Positions 26,603-41,677 of a stretch of DNA of 64,000 nt are shown piece by piece. The first letter of the stretch is position 1. Each line of letters opens with the position of its first letter. Made by a program: the position numbers and the translations under genes. The DNA is from Buttiauxella sp. B2 (GTDB lineage: Bacteria > Pseudomonadota > Gammaproteobacteria > Enterobacterales > Enterobacteriaceae), in contig NZ_VEXQ01000003.1 in the NCBI RefSeq assembly GCF_006376615.1, positions 1-64,000 of the forward strand, in the 5' to 3' direction. Below the pieces are notes generated by a model, which saw only the letters and a program-made list of their open reading frames with translations, made no database searches and had not been told where the DNA came from.

Positions 26603-26809
26603 ATGACTTTATATAAAGATTACCCTGCGCATCAGGTCTTCCTGCGTCGCACATTTGTTGTATTGGCAGGTGTTTTGGCCCTGCCCGTGATGCTGTTTTG
26701 GAAAGATCGCTCCCGTTTTTACAGCTACCTGCACCGCGTATGGTCTAAAACCAGTGAAAAACCTGTTTGGATGGCGCAAGCCGAAGCCGCATCCGGTGAT
26801 TTTTACTGA
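26603..26809 (+). CDS. ybfA: Small conserved protein YbfA (DUF2517)
   Basis: This 68-residue protein closely matches E. coli YbfA. It has one hydrophobic helix (about residues 13-33) followed by a basic, aromatic C-terminal part ([18 protein letters not shown]). Its function is unknown. In E. coli it diverges from kdp, as it does here, so it closes the kdp-side block of synteny. Shine-Dalgarno GGGAGAAG precedes the ATG and a terminator follows. Confidence 0.92.
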
Positions 26810-26827
26810 GTTTGCTGACAGATAATG

Positions 26828-26856
26828 AAAACCGCCACTTGCTGGCGGTTTTTTTA
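26828..26856 (+). terminator. Rho-independent terminator after ybfA
   Basis: Stem AACCGCCA-CTTGC-TGGCGGTT followed by TTTTT. It is the last element of the kdp-ybfA block before gene order jumps to elaA. Confidence 0.92.
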
Positions 26857-26898
26857 TGCGTGAAGATAACCACATGAGTAACGTTAAAGGGGCAGAAC

Positions 26899-27348
26899 AT
26901 GTTGATTTGGCAAGATTTACATCATTCAGAATTGAGCGTGACAGATCTCTATACTCTTTTGGCACTGCGCAATGCGGTGTTTGTGGTCGAGCAAAACTGC
27001 CCTTATCAGGATATTGATGGTGACGATTTAGTCGGTGAGAATCGGCATATCCTCGGCAGGCTAGAGGGAACGCTGGTGGCCTATGCCCGCATCCTTAAAA
27101 GCGACGACGAATTTGAACCTGTAGTGATTGGCCGTGTGATTATTGATAAAAGCGTGCGCGGGGAAAAACTCGGGTATCAATTAATGGAGCAAGCGATGGC
27201 TTCCTGCCAACAATACTGGCCGGAAAAAACGGTTTATTTAGGTGCGCAAGCGCATCTGCAATCGTTCTATACACACTTCGGTTTTATCCCAGTCACCAAC
27301 GTGTATGACGAAGATGGTATCCCTCATATTGGTATGGCTAATCGTTAG
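26899..27348 (+). CDS. elaA: GNAT-family N-acetyltransferase ElaA
   Basis: This 149-residue protein matches E. coli ElaA (153 residues). It has the GNAT fold with the acetyl-CoA motif VIIDKSVRGEKLGYQLM near residues 77-93 and the conserved YLGAQAHLQSFYTHFGF segment. Its physiological substrate is unknown. Together with elaB and menF it belongs to a region far from kdp in E. coli. Confidence 0.93.
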   Translation: MLIWQDLHHSELSVTDLYTLLALRNAVFVVEQNCPYQDIDGDDLVGENRHILGRLEGTLVAYARILKSDDEFEPVVIGRVIIDKSVRGEKLGYQLMEQAMASCQQYWPEKTVYLGAQAHLQSFYTHFGFIPVTNVYDEDGIPHIGMANR

Positions 27349-34861: not shown

Positions 34862-36373
34862 TTATGCCACGTCTACAGTCGCTTTACGCTGACGACGAAT
34901 CAATCGCAAAACCGGTGGTACGGTAATCACGACAATCGCCATAATCAGCAGACCTTTCGCCACACCACTTTCCCACAGAATGCTCAACCCACCGTTGCTG
35001 ATAGACAGCGCGCGACGCAGGTTTTGCTCCAACATTTCACCCAAAACGAAGCCCAGAATTAATGGTGACATTGGGAAGTGCATTTTGCGCAAAATATAGC
35101 CCAGCACACCCAGTCCAACCATCAGCAACAAATCGAAGGTGGTGCTGTGTACCGCGTAAACACCAACCGCAGAAACAGCGGCAATCGCAGGCACCAGGAA
35201 CCACAACGGAATGCTCAGCATCTTGGTGAAGAAACCGATTAACGGGATGTTCATGATAAGCAGCATGACGTTGGCAATCAGTAGTGAAGCAATCAACCCC
35301 CAAACGATATCTGGCTGTTCGGTAAACATTGCCGGACCCGGTGTGATGTTATAAAGGGTCAGCGCTCCCATCATCACCGCTGTGGTGCCTGAACCCGGTA
35401 CGCCAAGCGTTAGCATTGGGATAAACGACCCACACGCAGAAGCGTTATTTGCCGCTTCCGGTGCGGCCACGCCACGAATATCGCCTTTCCCGAATGTCTC
35501 GCTATTGCCACTGATTTTCTTCTCGGTCATGTAGGCGATGGCGGAGGCAATGGTGGCACCAGCACCAGGTAAAATCCCCACAAAGAAGCCGATAACAGAA
35601 GATCGCAGTGCCACGCCAGAACACTGTGCGGCTTCTTTCATGTTAAACATCATGCGCCCGGTTTTACGCACCAGTACCTGACCGCTGCTGGTGCTTTCCA
35701 GCATGAGCAGAATTTCAGAAACCGAGAAAAGACCAATCACGACAACAATAAATTGCACACCGTCGGAGAGGTGAACGCTATCAAATGTGAAGCGATATAC
35801 CCCGGTGTTGGCATCCACTCCGACAGTGGCAAGACCCAGACCAATCAACGCTGCAAGGAAAGATTTAAGCGGGTTTTGCGCCATCATGCTACCGAGGCAG
35901 GCAATGGCAAAGACCATTAGTGCAAAATATTCGGCGGGTCCGAAAGCCAGTGACCACTGCGCGAGTGCCGGTGCAAAAAGAATGATACCGATAATGGCCA
36001 GCAGTGAGCCGATAAAGGAACTCACCGCGGAAATGGATAATGCTACGCCGCCACGACCTTGTTTCGCCATTGGATAACCGTCGAGCGCGGTCATAATGGC
36101 GGCTGCATCTCCCGGAACGTTAAGCAATATCGACGAGATGCGTCCCCCGTATTCGCATCCGATGTAAACCGTAGCCAGCAAAATCAGCGCTGACTCCGGC
36201 GGTAATTTAAGAGCGAATGCGAGCGGCAGTAAAATCGCCACTCCGTTAATTGGGCCAAGGCCCGGCAGTAATCCGACGATGGTGCCGACAAAGCAACCAA
36301 TCAGGGCAATCATCAAGTTTTCCGGCGTCAGAGCAACGGCGAACCCTTGTGATAAGTAGAACCAGGTATCCAT
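34862..36373 (-). CDS. tctA: Tripartite tricarboxylate transporter large membrane subunit TctA
   Basis: TctA is the large permease subunit of the TctABC citrate/tricarboxylate importer. The 503-residue protein has about 12 membrane helices and the family motifs [17 protein letters not shown] near the N-terminus and [16 protein letters not shown] near residue 265. It is last in the tctC-tctB-tctA operon and converges on menE. It is close in length to Salmonella TctA. Confidence 0.95.
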
Positions 36374-36383
36374 AAATTCTCCG

Positions 36384-36815
36384 TTAGCTCAGCCAAACAC
36401 CGAGAGGAAGCGTGACGTCCAGCAGGCGGTCAAAGGAGTAGAACAACACCCCGCCCATGACGGCACCGGAAATTAATGCAGCCGGAATTGTTGCGCCAAA
36501 CAGCAGACCAATGCTGGCGGTGAGGAGCGTCGTTGCCAGTGGGAAGCCGAGCCATTCAAACGCCCATGCATAAAGAGCAAGGCTGATGACCATAACCGCC
36601 AAACGTTGTAGCGTCCGGCGATGTGGCCACTCCACCACGTCTGGGTGGCGCAGTATCAGCAACACTGCGCACATCAACATCAGGCCAATAATGGCTAAAG
36701 GAAACGGGCGTGGCCCTAAGGGTTCGTAACTGTATTCGCTTTGGATTTGCCAGCCGACAAACAGGCCAGCAATACACAGAGCAATCCAGATCCCGGCAAA
36801 AATACGATCGCTCAT
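36384..36815 (-). CDS. tctB: Tripartite tricarboxylate transporter small membrane subunit TctB
   Basis: I start at the second ATG (MSDRIFAG), five bases after GGAGG, giving 143 residues like Salmonella TctB. It has four hydrophobic helices and the LGPRPFPLAI motif. TctB is the small, poorly conserved permease subunit. It lies between tctC (12-bp gap) and tctA (10-bp gap). Confidence 0.93.
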   Translation of the reverse strand: MSDRIFAGIWIALCIAGLFVGWQIQSEYSYEPLGPRPFPLAIIGLMLMCAVLLILRHPDVVEWPHRRTLQRLAVMVISLALYAWAFEWLGFPLATTLLTASIGLLFGATIPAALISGAVMGGVLFYSFDRLLDVTLPLGVWLS

Positions 36816-36827
36816 CATTGCCTCCGG

Positions 36828-37808
36828 TTACTTAGCCAGGCCAAATGCTTTGGCTTGTTCGCGGTAGCCAGTGACCTGCTTCTTCACGTAAGCATCCAGC
36901 TCCTGGCCTGTCATGTTGAATTCGAATAGGCCACGGAGATCGCGCTGCTTTTTAAAATCTTCGGTTTGCTGGAGTTTGTTGAAGGTTTCGACCCACCACT
37001 GGTATTCCGCATCGCTGACTTTCGGGCCAACGTAGAAGCCACGAATAATCGGCCAGACCAGATCAAAACCTTGCTCTTTAGCGGTAGGGATTTTTGCCAG
37101 CTCGCCTGGTAAACGTTCGTTTGAGAACACCGCCAGCACGCGCAGTTTGTCGCCATTGAGATAAGGCACCATTTCGCTCAGGTCACCAGAAACCGCCTGC
37201 ACGTGGTTGCCCATCAGTGCTGTAACTGGTTCGCCGCCGCCTTCAAAGGCGACGTAACGCATCTTGTGAGGATCAACATTGGCTTTTTGCGCCAGCAACG
37301 CGGTTTTCATCCAGTCCTGGCTGCCGATAGATGCTCCGGCACCAATCACCACGCTGTTAGGGTCTTTTTCCATCGCAGCAAGCAGGGACTTCAGATCGGT
37401 CCAGGGTGAATCAGCACGCACGGCAATCATTCCGTAGTCGGTGCCGACGCTCGCCAGCCAGCGCACATCGTCCACGCCATAACGGCCAAACTTGCCTTGC
37501 GACAGGTTCAATAACGAACCACCGGAGAAGGCTACAACGGTGCCGGCTTCAGCAGGACGCTGGGCAACAATCGCATTGTACGCAACAGCCCCAACGCCGC
37601 CAGGCATGTAGGTGACACGCATGGGTTTCTCAAGCACACCGGTTTCTTGCAGGCTGACCTGAATCAGTTTGCAGGTCAGATCAAAACCGCCTCCAGGCTT
37701 AGCCGGGGCGATGCATTCAGTGCGCGATGGCACTTCTGCTGCCAGTGTATTGAAAGCGGTTAATAACAACGCTGAAGCGGTAAAACCAGAAAGTAGAGTA
37801 CGTTTCAT
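36828..37808 (-). CDS. tctC: Periplasmic tricarboxylate-binding protein TctC
   Basis: TctC captures citrate or related tricarboxylates in the periplasm for TctAB. I start at MKRTLLSG, giving 326 residues; two in-frame ATG or GTG codons upstream are possible. A signal peptide ends near residue 24 (NTLAA), and the mature protein begins EVPSRTECIAPAKPGGGFD, the BUG-family ligand-loop motif. Close to Salmonella TctC. It is first in the operon and diverges from tctD. Confidence 0.94.
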   Translation of the reverse strand: MKRTLLSGFTASALLLTAFNTLAAEVPSRTECIAPAKPGGGFDLTCKLIQVSLQETGVLEKPMRVTYMPGGVGAVAYNAIVAQRPAEAGTVVAFSGGSLLNLSQGKFGRYGVDDVRWLASVGTDYGMIAVRADSPWTDLKSLLAAMEKDPNSVVIGAGASIGSQDWMKTALLAQKANVDPHKMRYVAFEGGGEPVTALMGNHVQAVSGDLSEMVPYLNGDKLRVLAVFSNERLPGELAKIPTAKEQGFDLVWPIIRGFYVGPKVSDAEYQWWVETFNKLQQTEDFKKQRDLRGLFEFNMTGQELDAYVKKQVTGYREQAKAFGLAK

Positions 37809-37900
37809 TCTTATCTTCATCCTCACGTCAAAAAAGCCGGTAGATGTTTCGCATTATGTGAACCGCCTTGCAGTAGCTCGGTTGCGTGATTGTTAAAGCA

Positions 37901-37922
37901 TTAACCTTTCATTTACCTTTCA
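37901..37922. repeat. Tandem 11-bp direct repeat between tctC and tctD (candidate TctD site)
   Basis: TTAACCTTTCA is followed at once by TTTACCTTTCA, two 11-mers identical at 10 positions. Response regulators of the OmpR/PhoB class bind tandem repeats with 11-bp spacing, and TctD is of that class. A CATAAT (37858..37853) with a poor -35 on the minus strand is a likely tctC -10, which would put the repeat about 55 to 76 bp upstream of the tctC start point. Confidence 0.45.
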
Positions 37923-37950
37923 CGGCAGCAGAAACTTTACAGGATGTGAT

Positions 37951-38625
37951 ATGCGTCTCTTACTCGCAGAAGATAACCGTGAGCTGGCTCACTGGCTGGA
38001 AAAAGCCCTGATACAAGCAGGCTTTGCTGTGGATTGTGTGTTTGACGGCCAGGCCGCCGACCATCTCTTACAAAACGAACGCTATGCGGTCGCGGTAATG
38101 GATATCGGGATGCCAAGAATGGATGGTCTTGAAGTGTTACAGCGTTTGCGTAAGCGCGGGCAGACGTTGCCAGTGCTGTTACTGACAGCGCACAGCACAG
38201 TGAGTGACCGCGTTAAAGGGCTGAATACGGGGGCCGATGACTATCTGCCCAAACCGTTTGATCTCGAGGAACTGGATGCGCGGCTGCGGGCACTGGTGCG
38301 GCGCAGCGAAGGCCAAATTCACGAGCAACAACAATTAGGGCAGCTTACGCTTCATGATGAAGGTTACTTCTTACTGGAAAACAAACCGTTGGCATTAACG
38401 CCGCGTGAACACGCCATTTTGACGGTGTTGATGTATCGCCGCACGCGTCCGGTACCCAAGCAGCAATTGTATGAACAAGTGTTCAGTTTAAGCGACGAAG
38501 CTAGCCCGGAATCTATCGAGCTTTATATCCATCGTCTACGCAAAAAATTAGCCACCAGTAATGTACAAATCACCACGCTACGCGGGCTTGGTTACGTGCT
38601 GGAGTGCAGTGATGCGCACCTTTAA
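37951..38625 (+). CDS. tctD: Response regulator TctD
   Basis: TctD activates tctCBA in response to tricarboxylates sensed by TctE. The 224-residue protein has a receiver domain with phospho-Asp51 (VMDIGMPRMDG) and YLPKPFD, then an OmpR/PhoB winged helix (about 125-222). AGGATGTGAT precedes the ATG. Its end overlaps tctE by 14 bases. Confidence 0.95.
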   Translation: MRLLLAEDNRELAHWLEKALIQAGFAVDCVFDGQAADHLLQNERYAVAVMDIGMPRMDGLEVLQRLRKRGQTLPVLLLTAHSTVSDRVKGLNTGADDYLPKPFDLEELDARLRALVRRSEGQIHEQQQLGQLTLHDEGYFLLENKPLALTPREHAILTVLMYRRTRPVPKQQLYEQVFSLSDEASPESIELYIHRLRKKLATSNVQITTLRGLGYVLECSDAHL

Positions 38626-40018
38626 ACCGAAGTCTTTGTTTGGGCAACTGCTGCTTTTCCTCGGTTTACCGTTATTTATTTTGTGGGGTTTTTCGGCGGC
38701 TAGTAGTTATTTAAGTGCCATGAATGCTGCCACTCAAGCTTACGATCGCACATTGCTTGCCTCGACGCGTACCGTTGCGGAGCAGCTCGTGGTGCATGAC
38801 GGAAAGCTTGCGGTTGATGTTCCGTGGGTGGTGCTCGATAGCTTTGAGCGCAACATGGACGACAGATTGTATTACAAAGTCACTGATACGCACGGCAACG
38901 TTATCTCGGGATACGACGACCTGCCTGATATGCCAAAAAATACGCCGGGCACGGAGTTGTATCCGGCACTGGCATGGTTCTATGACGCCGAATATCGAGG
39001 ACAAACGTTGCGCGTTGCGCGTTTGCTTCAGCCCGTTAACGAGGGTGGAGTGAATGGCATGGCACAAATTATTGTCGCTGAAACTATTCAGTCGCGGCGC
39101 TATCTGGCGGTGCGGTTGTTAATGTCAGCAGCACTCACGCAAGGCGGTCTGGTTTTGCTGACACTGACGCTTGCCTGGCTACTTTTGAGACGAGTGCTTA
39201 AACCGATGCGCCAGCTTTCGGTGCAGATGGCCCGACGCGACTCAGGTGACTTAACGCCGCTGCCGGATTTACTACCGTGGTCGGAAACACGCTTGCTGAT
39301 TGTCTCGTTTAACCGTTATATCGACCGATTGCGTAGCCTGGTTGCTCGCCAGGCGCGATTCAGCGCCGATGCGTCTCACCAGCTTCGCACACCGTTAACG
39401 GTGCTAAAAACTCAGGCATCCGTAGCGCTCAGCAGTTCTGACCCAATGCAGTGGCGAGAAAGCCTGGTAGCGATGCAAAGCACACTCGATAACACCATTC
39501 ATTTGACCGAGCAATTATTACAGCTCTCACGCCTTAGCCGGCTTGACCAGACAGACGGGCAGGCAATGGAAGCGGTTGATTTGGTGAAAATCGCGCAGGC
39601 GTGTTGTTTCTCAAGCCTTGCGCAGGCAAGAAGCAAAAATATCGATTTGGGTTATGAAGGGTTGCCCACGGCCTGGATAACCGGCGAGCCAGTTTTGCTG
39701 GGGGAAATGTGCATGAACCTGCTGGATAATGCCCTCAAATACACGCCAGATAACGGTATTGTCACCATTCGTGTGACCCGCGATGAATCGCAAATTGTAT
39801 GGCTTGAGATTGAGGACAACGGCCCCGGCATTGAAAACGGGCAGGTTCGCCACGCGCTGATGCCGTTCCACCGTTTAGATAACAGTGCAGAGCAAAGTGG
39901 CGCAGGAATTGGATTGGCACTGGTGAATGATATTGCGCGTTATCATCGGACACGGCCTGAATTGTTACGTTCAGCATTGGGTGGGTTACTGGTCAGAGTT
40001 AAATTGGCTGCGATTTAA
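38612..40018 (+). CDS. tctE: Sensor histidine kinase TctE
   Basis: I start at MRTFKPKSLF inside the end of tctD, giving 468 residues, close to Salmonella TctE (about 471). The order is an N-terminal membrane helix (about 10-35), a periplasmic sensor region, a second helix (about 165-190), HAMP, the H-box ASHQLRTPLTVL and the HATPase_c domain with NLLDNALKYT, EDNGPGI and GAGIGLALV. The longer upstream frame would overlap tctD by 65 bases and lacks family support. Confidence 0.95.
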   Translation: MRTFKPKSLFGQLLLFLGLPLFILWGFSAASSYLSAMNAATQAYDRTLLASTRTVAEQLVVHDGKLAVDVPWVVLDSFERNMDDRLYYKVTDTHGNVISGYDDLPDMPKNTPGTELYPALAWFYDAEYRGQTLRVARLLQPVNEGGVNGMAQIIVAETIQSRRYLAVRLLMSAALTQGGLVLLTLTLAWLLLRRVLKPMRQLSVQMARRDSGDLTPLPDLLPWSETRLLIVSFNRYIDRLRSLVARQARFSADASHQLRTPLTVLKTQASVALSSSDPMQWRESLVAMQSTLDNTIHLTEQLLQLSRLSRLDQTDGQAMEAVDLVKIAQACCFSSLAQARSKNIDLGYEGLPTAWITGEPVLLGEMCMNLLDNALKYTPDNGIVTIRVTRDESQIVWLEIEDNGPGIENGQVRHALMPFHRLDNSAEQSGAGIGLALVNDIARYHRTRPELLRSALGGLLVRVKLAAI

Positions 40019-40040
40019 AAAGGCGGGGATACACCCCGCC
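40015..40040 (-). terminator. Rho-independent terminator after katA
   Basis: On the minus strand GGCGGGG-TGTAT-CCCCGCC is followed by TTTTTA, 11 bp after the katA stop and just inside the end of the convergent tctE gene. Confidence 0.88.
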
Positions 40041-40050
40041 ACAATACGTG

Positions 40051-41490
40051 TTATTTCAATTCGTTAAGTGCTGCCGCTACACCCGCGCCATACTCCGGAT
40101 GCACCTGGTTAAACAGAGCAATCTGGCGCTCCTGAATAAACTCTGGAACATCTTTCATATCACCGGCAATACGGTTAAACATGCGTTGGTGCTCTTCATT
40201 ACTCAACAGGTTATACAGCGCGCGTGGCTGCGTGAAGTAGTCAGTATCTTCACGATGGTTCCAGTGATCCGCCGCGCCTTCCAGACTTAACGGCGGTTCG
40301 CTGAAATCAGGCTGCTCCTGGAACACATTAAAGCTGTTTGGCTCATAGGTTGGGCCATTGCCGCTGTTTCCATCAATACGCATCGCGCCATCACGGTGGT
40401 AGTTATGGAACGGGCATTTCGGTGCGTTAACCGGGATTTGATGATGGTTAACACCCAAACGGTAGCGGTGCGCATCACCGTAAGAGAACAGGCGGCCTTG
40501 CAGCATACGGTCTGGAGAGAAACCAATGCCTGGTACCACGTTCGCCGGAGACATTGCCACTTGCTCAACATCGGCAAAGTAGTTGTCTGGGTTACGGTTC
40601 AGTTCAAGTTCACCCACTTCAATCAGCGGATAATCACCGTGTGGCCAGACTTTTGTCAGGTCAAACGGGTTGTATGAAGTCTGCGAGGCTTCCGCTTCCG
40701 GCATGATTTGCACGTAGAATTTCCAGCGTGGGAAATCACCGCCTTCAATGGAATCAAACAAGTCGCGCTGTGAGCTTTCACGGTCATTTGCGATAATTGC
40801 TGCTGCTTCATCGTCCATCAGGTTGGCGATTTGCTGCTGTGTTTTCAGGTGGAATTTCACCCAGAAACGCTCGTTGTCGCTATTGATAAAGCTGAAGGTG
40901 TGGCTACCAAAACCATGGATATGACGGTAAGAACGTGGCAGGCCGCGGTCGCTAAAGTCGATGGTTAACTGGTGCACAGATTCAGGAAGCTGTGAGAAGA
41001 AATCCCATTTGTAGGTGGCGTTACGCAGGTTGGTACGTGGGTCGCGCTTCACTACGTGGTTTAAATCAGGGAATTTTAGCGGGTCGCGAAGATAGAACAC
41101 GGGGGTGTTGTTGCCGACTAAATCCCAGTTGCCTTCTTCGGTATAAAATTTCATGGAGAAGCCGCGAATATCACGCTCGGCATCTGCGGCGCCACGTTCG
41201 CCTGCTACGGTTGAGAAACGAAGGAACAGCTCGGTTTTTTTGCCAATCTCAGAGAAGATCTTTGCACGGGTGAACTGTGTAATATCGTGTGTGACAGTAA
41301 ACGTACCAAATGCACCAGAGCCTTTGGCGTGCATACGACGCTCCGGAATAACTTCACGGTCAAAGTGGGCGAGTTTCTCTAGAAACCATACGTCCTGTAG
41401 TAGCATTGGGCCACGGGGGCCAGCGGTTGCGACATTATTATTGTGGGCTACTGGAGCCCCGGATGCAGTCGTTAATCCTTTCTTGCTCAT
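40051..41490 (-). CDS. katA: Monofunctional haem catalase, small-subunit type
   Basis: KatA breaks down H2O2 to water and oxygen in the cytoplasm. I start at [11 protein letters not shown], five bases after GGAGA, giving 479 residues, the size of the small-subunit clade 3 catalases. The catalytic His is in [12 protein letters not shown] near residue 54, the Asn in [10 protein letters not shown] near 127, and the haem-ligand Tyr in [12 protein letters not shown] near 337. The E. coli K-12 catalases KatE and KatG are of other types, so this gene marks a lineage difference. I see no clear OxyR site in the 261-bp spacer to yfaZ. Confidence 0.93.
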
Positions 41491-41677
41491 TGTTGTCTCC
41501 ATGTATCAATGTGAATTGCGGCCAAAAGCGGATCGAGGTGTTCTGTTTATTTATGGGGAAGTTATGGCCTATGAGCAATTTGGCACTTTCTATCGCTGCC
41601 ATTCATTGATCCTGTCACGAGATTGCCAGTTTTTTTCATTTTCTTACAAACGAATAACAAAAAGCATCTCTAACGCA

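Follow-up and report, generated by a model that had tools for sequence, protein, structure and literature searches.

The ybfA-elaA junction of Buttiauxella very probably marks one end of a terminus-spanning inter-replichore inversion

The window analysed here comprises the first 64 kb of the 372-kb contig C23 in the 75-contig draft assembly of Buttiauxella sp. B2 (genome G000). In E. coli K-12, 1.65 Mb separates ybfA from elaA; in this genome the two genes are adjacent on the same strand with 89 bp between them. The ybfA/elaA junction is confirmed as real. Its features, with the interpretation developed below, are as follows.

1-26809: unmoved block, asnB to kdpFABC plus ybfA (K-12 0.70-0.73 Mb; tblastn with K-12 proteins, K-12 annotation)
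26603-26809, plus strand: ybfA (Pfam DUF2517, 1.1e-35), the last gene of the unmoved side, which reads into the junction
26810-26827: putative breakpoint, the spacer from the ybfA stop codon to the moved terminator (from comparison of the ybfA 3', nuoN 3' and elaA 5' regions of Buttiauxella and outgroups)
26828-26855, plus strand: predicted hairpin terminator T1, found after nuoN in relatives and here behind ybfA (the nuoN terminators of Dryocola, Cedecea and others are almost identical to it)
26856-26898, plus strand: elaA leader, which moved with elaA (contains the GAAGATAA element)
26899-27348, plus strand: elaA (NCBIfam equivalog PRK10314, 272 bits, cut-off 171), the first gene of the exchanged side
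26828-64000: window part of exchanged block L1 (ORF map against genome G020, tblastn)

Searches with K-12 proteins (tblastn) placed asnB to kdpA in K-12 order to the left of the junction. To the right are elaB, menF, menD, menH, menB, menC, menE, yfaZ, yfaY and glpCBA, followed by glpT, yfaE, nrdB, nrdA, ubiG and gyrA. Block L1 thus contains elaA, elaB and the men, glp, nrd and gyrA genes, among others, and it continues past the window to about C23:72,070. The left side corresponds to 0.73 Mb in K-12 and the right side to 2.34-2.38 Mb in descending (i.e., reversed) order, with strands as an inversion predicts. An earlier, sequence-only reading of this DNA had described a kdp-ybfA block in E. 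coli order joined to an elaA-menF block in reversed order, and it is borne out on both points by the profile matches for ybfA and elaA and by tblastn for the flanking genes. It also holds that the junction carries neither an IS nor a tRNA: there is no room for an IS in the 89-bp spacer, and the one tRNA of the 64-kb window (ARAGORN) is at 2-78. A promoter and terminator scan was uninformative (no promoters against 1.4 expected; one terminator-like site, on the minus strand, against 1.3 expected). Where the arn operon would stand, the menE-yfaZ interval (34862-41502) has five ORFs of 224-503 aa, and probes for K-12 arnB, arnA, arnT, pmrD, ais and nudI had no match within the window.

The gene pair was sought in 60 genomes: 12 of the genus (the window's own included), 24 others of the family and 24 others of the order. 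All 12 genus genomes encode ybfA and 11 encode elaA. Either elaA-elaB or elaB is next to ybfA in all 12: ybfA and elaA occur together in 11, and the twelfth (G002) has ybfA-elaB and no elaA match. The gap between ybfA and elaA is about 92 bp in five genomes (G000, G001, G009, G010 and G011) and 1.6-1.9 kb in six (G003-G008). On the other side of ybfA, kdp is present in 11 of the 12; the G005 contig begins 680 bp upstream of ybfA. Outside the genus, ybfA and elaA are adjacent in none of the 11 same-family genomes that have both (the elaA match of G023 is weak). The eight named elaA loci closest to that of the window are from Buttiauxella (89-95% identity). Among the best 80 of 411 named elaA loci, the eight named Buttiauxella have ybfA upstream and 71 of the other 72 have nuoN upstream; in the Ewingella locus L092, no probe gene lies within 10 kb upstream of elaA. 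A misassembly or chimeric contig could be suspected in a window from a 75-contig draft, but the junction recurs in the 11 other genus genomes, including three of one or two contigs (G008, G009, G011), and the probability of such an artefact is negligible.

The junction region varies within the genus. In G002 (L102), ybfA, T1 and elaB are retained and elaA is absent. The G007 junction contains a phosphoethanolamine-transferase-like ORF (L107:8372-9922), whose best NCBIfam match, to the CptA subfamily, is below the cut-off; the gaps of G003-G006 are similar in size to that of G007, and the transferase-like ORF was read in L107 only. In G008, a decayed yfbK-like stretch with split frames lies between ybfA and elaA (L108:8709-9786). 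We considered this remnant as proof of a breakpoint beyond yfbK and rejected it, given that a T1-like hairpin sits between the remnant and elaA; a later insertion is as likely a source for it.

An inversion should leave a second junction. The sequence-only reading had predicted one that joins rbn (elaC) to the genes downstream of ybfA. Such a junction exists, with a different partner: phr or phr-ybgA adjoins nuoN in all nine genus genomes covered (G000-G002, G004, G005 and G008-G011), including the window's own (G000:C9, L096), and the strands are as predicted. The nuoN-ybgA spacer is about 100 bp in G000. We identified rbn in none of the 12 genus genomes, nor any remnant of it in the seven gaps tested; thus the predicted rbn junction does not exist, and rbn was rejected as the partner. 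Of the 12 same-family genomes outside the genus that have both genes, 11 have ybfA less than 1.4 kb from phr, and in G014 the two are on separate contigs. The genus therefore has two reciprocal junctions with inverted relative strands, as expected of an inversion.

Two side observations concern the nuoN neighbourhood. In G008 (L098:12292-14079), an ORF similar to methyl-accepting chemotaxis proteins is inserted between nuoN and ybgA. Also, rbn is absent between nuoN and elaA in Cedecea sulfonylureivorans (L024), the metagenome-assembled genome (MAG) L027 and Mangrovibacter (L086), and loss of rbn at this spot seems recurrent.

The hairpins at the two junctions allow the breakpoint to be placed closely. 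T1 (AAAACCGCC...GGCGGTTTTTTT) is located 3' of nuoN in relatives. The Dryocola copy agrees with window positions 26828-26858 in the CTTG loop and in the ATG behind the T-run. A script run on 71 outgroup nuoN loci found T1 at 32, another hairpin at 30 (many of them a CCCGCC variant) and none at nine. The T1 hairpin folds at -16.3 kcal/mol, which none of 200 shuffles equalled. With up to three mismatches allowed, its pattern occurs once per genome in all four Buttiauxella searched and is absent from G020. T1 is directly behind ybfA in six of the 12 genus genomes (G000, G001, G002, G009, G010 and G011) and in front of elaA in G008; the other five (G003-G007) have a different hairpin and a 1.9-kb stretch behind ybfA instead. 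The GAAGATAA element of the elaA leader is common to other Buttiauxella and to the nuoN-T1-elaA spacer of C. sulfonylureivorans (L024).

A second predicted terminator, T2 (AAAAGGCTACC...GGTAGCCTTTTTT or close variants, then TTGCTACACTT), follows nuoN in all nine genus genomes covered (seven by script; G001 and G002 have an imperfect stem), and its TTGCTACACTTA flank is present in eight of the nine, the exception being G008. In outgroups T2 follows ybfA at three of eight loci. These putative terminators have changed places, T1 from nuoN to ybfA and T2 from ybfA to nuoN, and each transcription unit kept a predicted terminator. A point against the exchange is that C. sulfonylureivorans (L130), in the uninverted order, has a CCGCC-type hairpin with a different loop after ybfA; hairpins of this type can thus arise independently behind ybfA. 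The loss of T1 from behind ybfA in G003-G007 and its presence at only 32 of the 71 outgroup nuoN loci weigh in the same direction. Since T1 went to ybfA and T2 to nuoN, the breakpoint in the window is placed at 26810-26827 and is readable to about 20 bp. Two details of the sequence-only reading are thereby overturned: the hairpin at 26828-26855 is not ybfA's own terminator, as it matches the nuoN terminator of relatives and came with the elaA side, and the junction is not within the approximately 40 bp to the right of the hairpin but to its left.

The exchange also bears on transposition, in which the elaA-gyrA block would have been inserted by ybfA and the ybgA-gltA block by nuoN, independently and with no inversion. 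The exchanged stretch beside the junction is only about 45 kb in the window's genome, and block moves would look alike locally. Two independent insertions would, however, hardly be expected to exchange both terminators between one pair of sites, or to produce the alternation of blocks on both arms at matching distances that is described below. We consider transposition very unlikely.

The event was dated with a quick tree of menF-menD-menH-menB (30 rows, Winslowiella having been dropped from 31), in which Pantoea and Mangrovibacter have long branches and several rows are uneven in letter composition. The 12 genus genomes form one clade (SH-aLRT 100). The sister clade comprises Dryocola, C. colo, C. 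sulfonylureivorans, Enterobacter sp. R1 and a MAG labelled Buttiauxella, and all five have the ancestral order, in which nuoN precedes elaA and ybfA is next to ybgA or phr; thus, the event is placed on the Buttiauxella stem. G009, the first branch within the genus, has the ybfA-elaA junction. T1 follows nuoN in four of the five sister-clade genomes, and the three outgroup loci with T2 after ybfA are all within this clade (three of the five). The MAG (L027), whose title is 'uncultured Buttiauxella', clusters with the Dryocola clade and does not carry the junction, and its Buttiauxella label looks doubtful.

In G008, G009 and G011 the endpoints are on opposite replichores, with dif between the two junctions. 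The distances from dnaA to the two junctions are 1.44 and 1.50 Mb (G008), 1.40 and 1.32 Mb (G009) and 1.41 and 1.50 Mb (G011), which agree within about 6%; those from dif are 1.13 and 1.07, 1.04 and 0.88, and 1.26 and 1.05 Mb, respectively. The endpoints in G020, which has the ancestral order, differ by 93 kb in their distance from dnaA. This similarity is suggestive yet weak for one pair alone, since about 7% of random pairs are as close.

Gene order inside the interval is more complex than one inversion predicts. We tested a single-inversion model with 13 conserved markers; the guaB piece was left out, second copies and paralogues of gyrA, ackA, gltA, glnS and hisD and one weak row (pieces 501-604) were set aside, and matches running into an adjoining piece were assigned by their main part. 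The order in G008 and G011 is glnS-ybfA/elaA-gyrA-rpsA-icd-yeaC-dif-topA-hisD-gltA-phr/nuoN-ackA (slashes mark the junctions). The original side is kept by rpsA in G008, G009 and G011 and by icd and hisD in G008 and G011, so that the outer blocks alone are exchanged. G009 differs from the other two in an extra terminus-spanning inversion of the icd-hisD part (G009:C2), in which dif is flipped. In all seven genomes searched icd and yeaC are 23-82 kb apart, against about 0.67 Mb in K-12, which suggests that the E. coli side underwent a rearrangement of its own.

Finer maps placed ORFs against two regions of G020 at identities of at least 50% or at least 55% (e.g., 105 of 160 ORFs of G000 C23), with a few single ORFs out of order. 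Along the window's arm, L1 extends to C23:72.1 kb and is followed by R2 (72.2-104.4 kb), L3 (104.4-123.2 kb), more R2 (124.4-153.6 kb) and then R4; the original arm thus returns beyond about 72 kb of C23, and alternation follows. The other arm reads R1, L2, R3 and L4 in G008; for G009 the map showed R1, L2 and a portion of R3. The alternation of arm of origin is identical in G000, G008 and G009. Gene order in the outgroup G033 matches that of G020 at each of the six inner boundaries, and by this outgroup comparison Buttiauxella is derived there. From outer to inner, the paired boundaries differ in their dnaA distances by 93, 72, 52 and 29 kb in G020. Judged by gene strands, each of the inner boundaries E1-E3 joins a convergent intergenic region to a divergent one; thus, terminator exchange was seen at the outer junction only.

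One clean inversion that turned the whole terminus half, with no other event, would account for the two reciprocal junctions and their strands. At present the interval is not inverted as one piece: rpsA has kept its original side in G008, G009 and G011, as have icd and hisD in G008 and G011, and blocks alternate in the fine maps of G000, G008 and G009. This explanation is refuted for the present gene order and highly improbable overall. The symmetric inter-replichore inversion proposed by the sequence-only reading accordingly survives in its reciprocal junction, the position of dif and the similar dnaA distances, and gives way in that the alternating blocks are not the product of one simple inversion. 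The simplest reading, made by eye and not as a computed minimum, invokes local moves and no fewer than four nested terminus-spanning inversions, the outermost of which is the ybfA/nuoN inversion.

We conclude with high confidence that a terminus-spanning inversion between the replichores took place on the Buttiauxella stem and that the junction is one of its ends, with crosswise terminator exchange and further inversions nested inside it. The ancestor would have had ybfA-T2-ybgA-phr on one replichore and nuoN-T1-(rbn-)elaA on the other, with ybfA and nuoN each transcribed toward the terminus. At each site a break would have fallen between stop codon and terminator hairpin (an interval defined to about 20 bp), and the ends would have been rejoined crosswise, so that ybfA gained T1-elaA (the window junction) and nuoN gained T2-ybgA-phr (the reciprocal one). 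Three or more additional terminus-spanning inversions, nested within this one, together with local moves would have brought most of the interval back and left an alternation of exchanged blocks. The most likely mechanism would be breakage or template switching at a pair of replication forks that were similarly far from the origin, and replichore balance, strand bias and the keeping of both terminators may have favoured survival of the product.

With regard to a repeat at both junctions, no IS fits the 89 bp, and the T1 pattern is present once per genome in the four Buttiauxella searched; a mediating repeat may since have been lost. A rather unlikely variant is that recombination took place at the two intrinsic terminators themselves. 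On this view their similar A-tracts, GC hairpins and T-tracts, mutually inverted and at similar origin distances, would have been substrates for short-homology or template-switch events. Inversion there would swap the terminators and leave neither gene without one.

Symmetric inversions round the origin-terminus axis (Eisen et al., 2000; Tillier & Collins, 2000; as cited in PMC12863080) are, in the excerpts available of four sources, common and often repeat-mediated (PMC9584773, PMC5850607, PMC2483231, PMC12863080). The Buttiauxella event resembles those described there in having one endpoint per replichore, the terminus inside, similar origin distances and repeated nested events. Unlike them, it is old and fixed in the genus, and its breakpoint is legible to about 20 bp via the swapped terminators. 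Within-species inversions are flanked by the same repeat at both ends in the available part of PMC9584773, whereas no repeat or IS was seen at the Buttiauxella junction. Host-specific Salmonella, according to the portion available of PMC2957434, have inversions by recombination between rRNA operons; these and the Buttiauxella event are both large enterobacterial chromosomal rearrangements, but the Buttiauxella spacers (89 bp for ybfA-elaA and about 100 bp for nuoN-ybgA in G000) are too short for an rRNA operon. The literature searched on Buttiauxella inversions and synteny yielded no paper on the ybfA-elaA junction. The event is of a well-known kind, and the base-level terminator exchange is its distinctive part.

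The junction is a genus-wide structural marker for Buttiauxella, acquired on the stem after the split from the Dryocola/C. colo clade. If terminators did act as recombination sites, and did so generally, they would influence where inversions arise or can be tolerated. Old junctions such as this one, with no visible repeat, are useful for studying how symmetric inversions arise and what intergenic sites can accommodate them.
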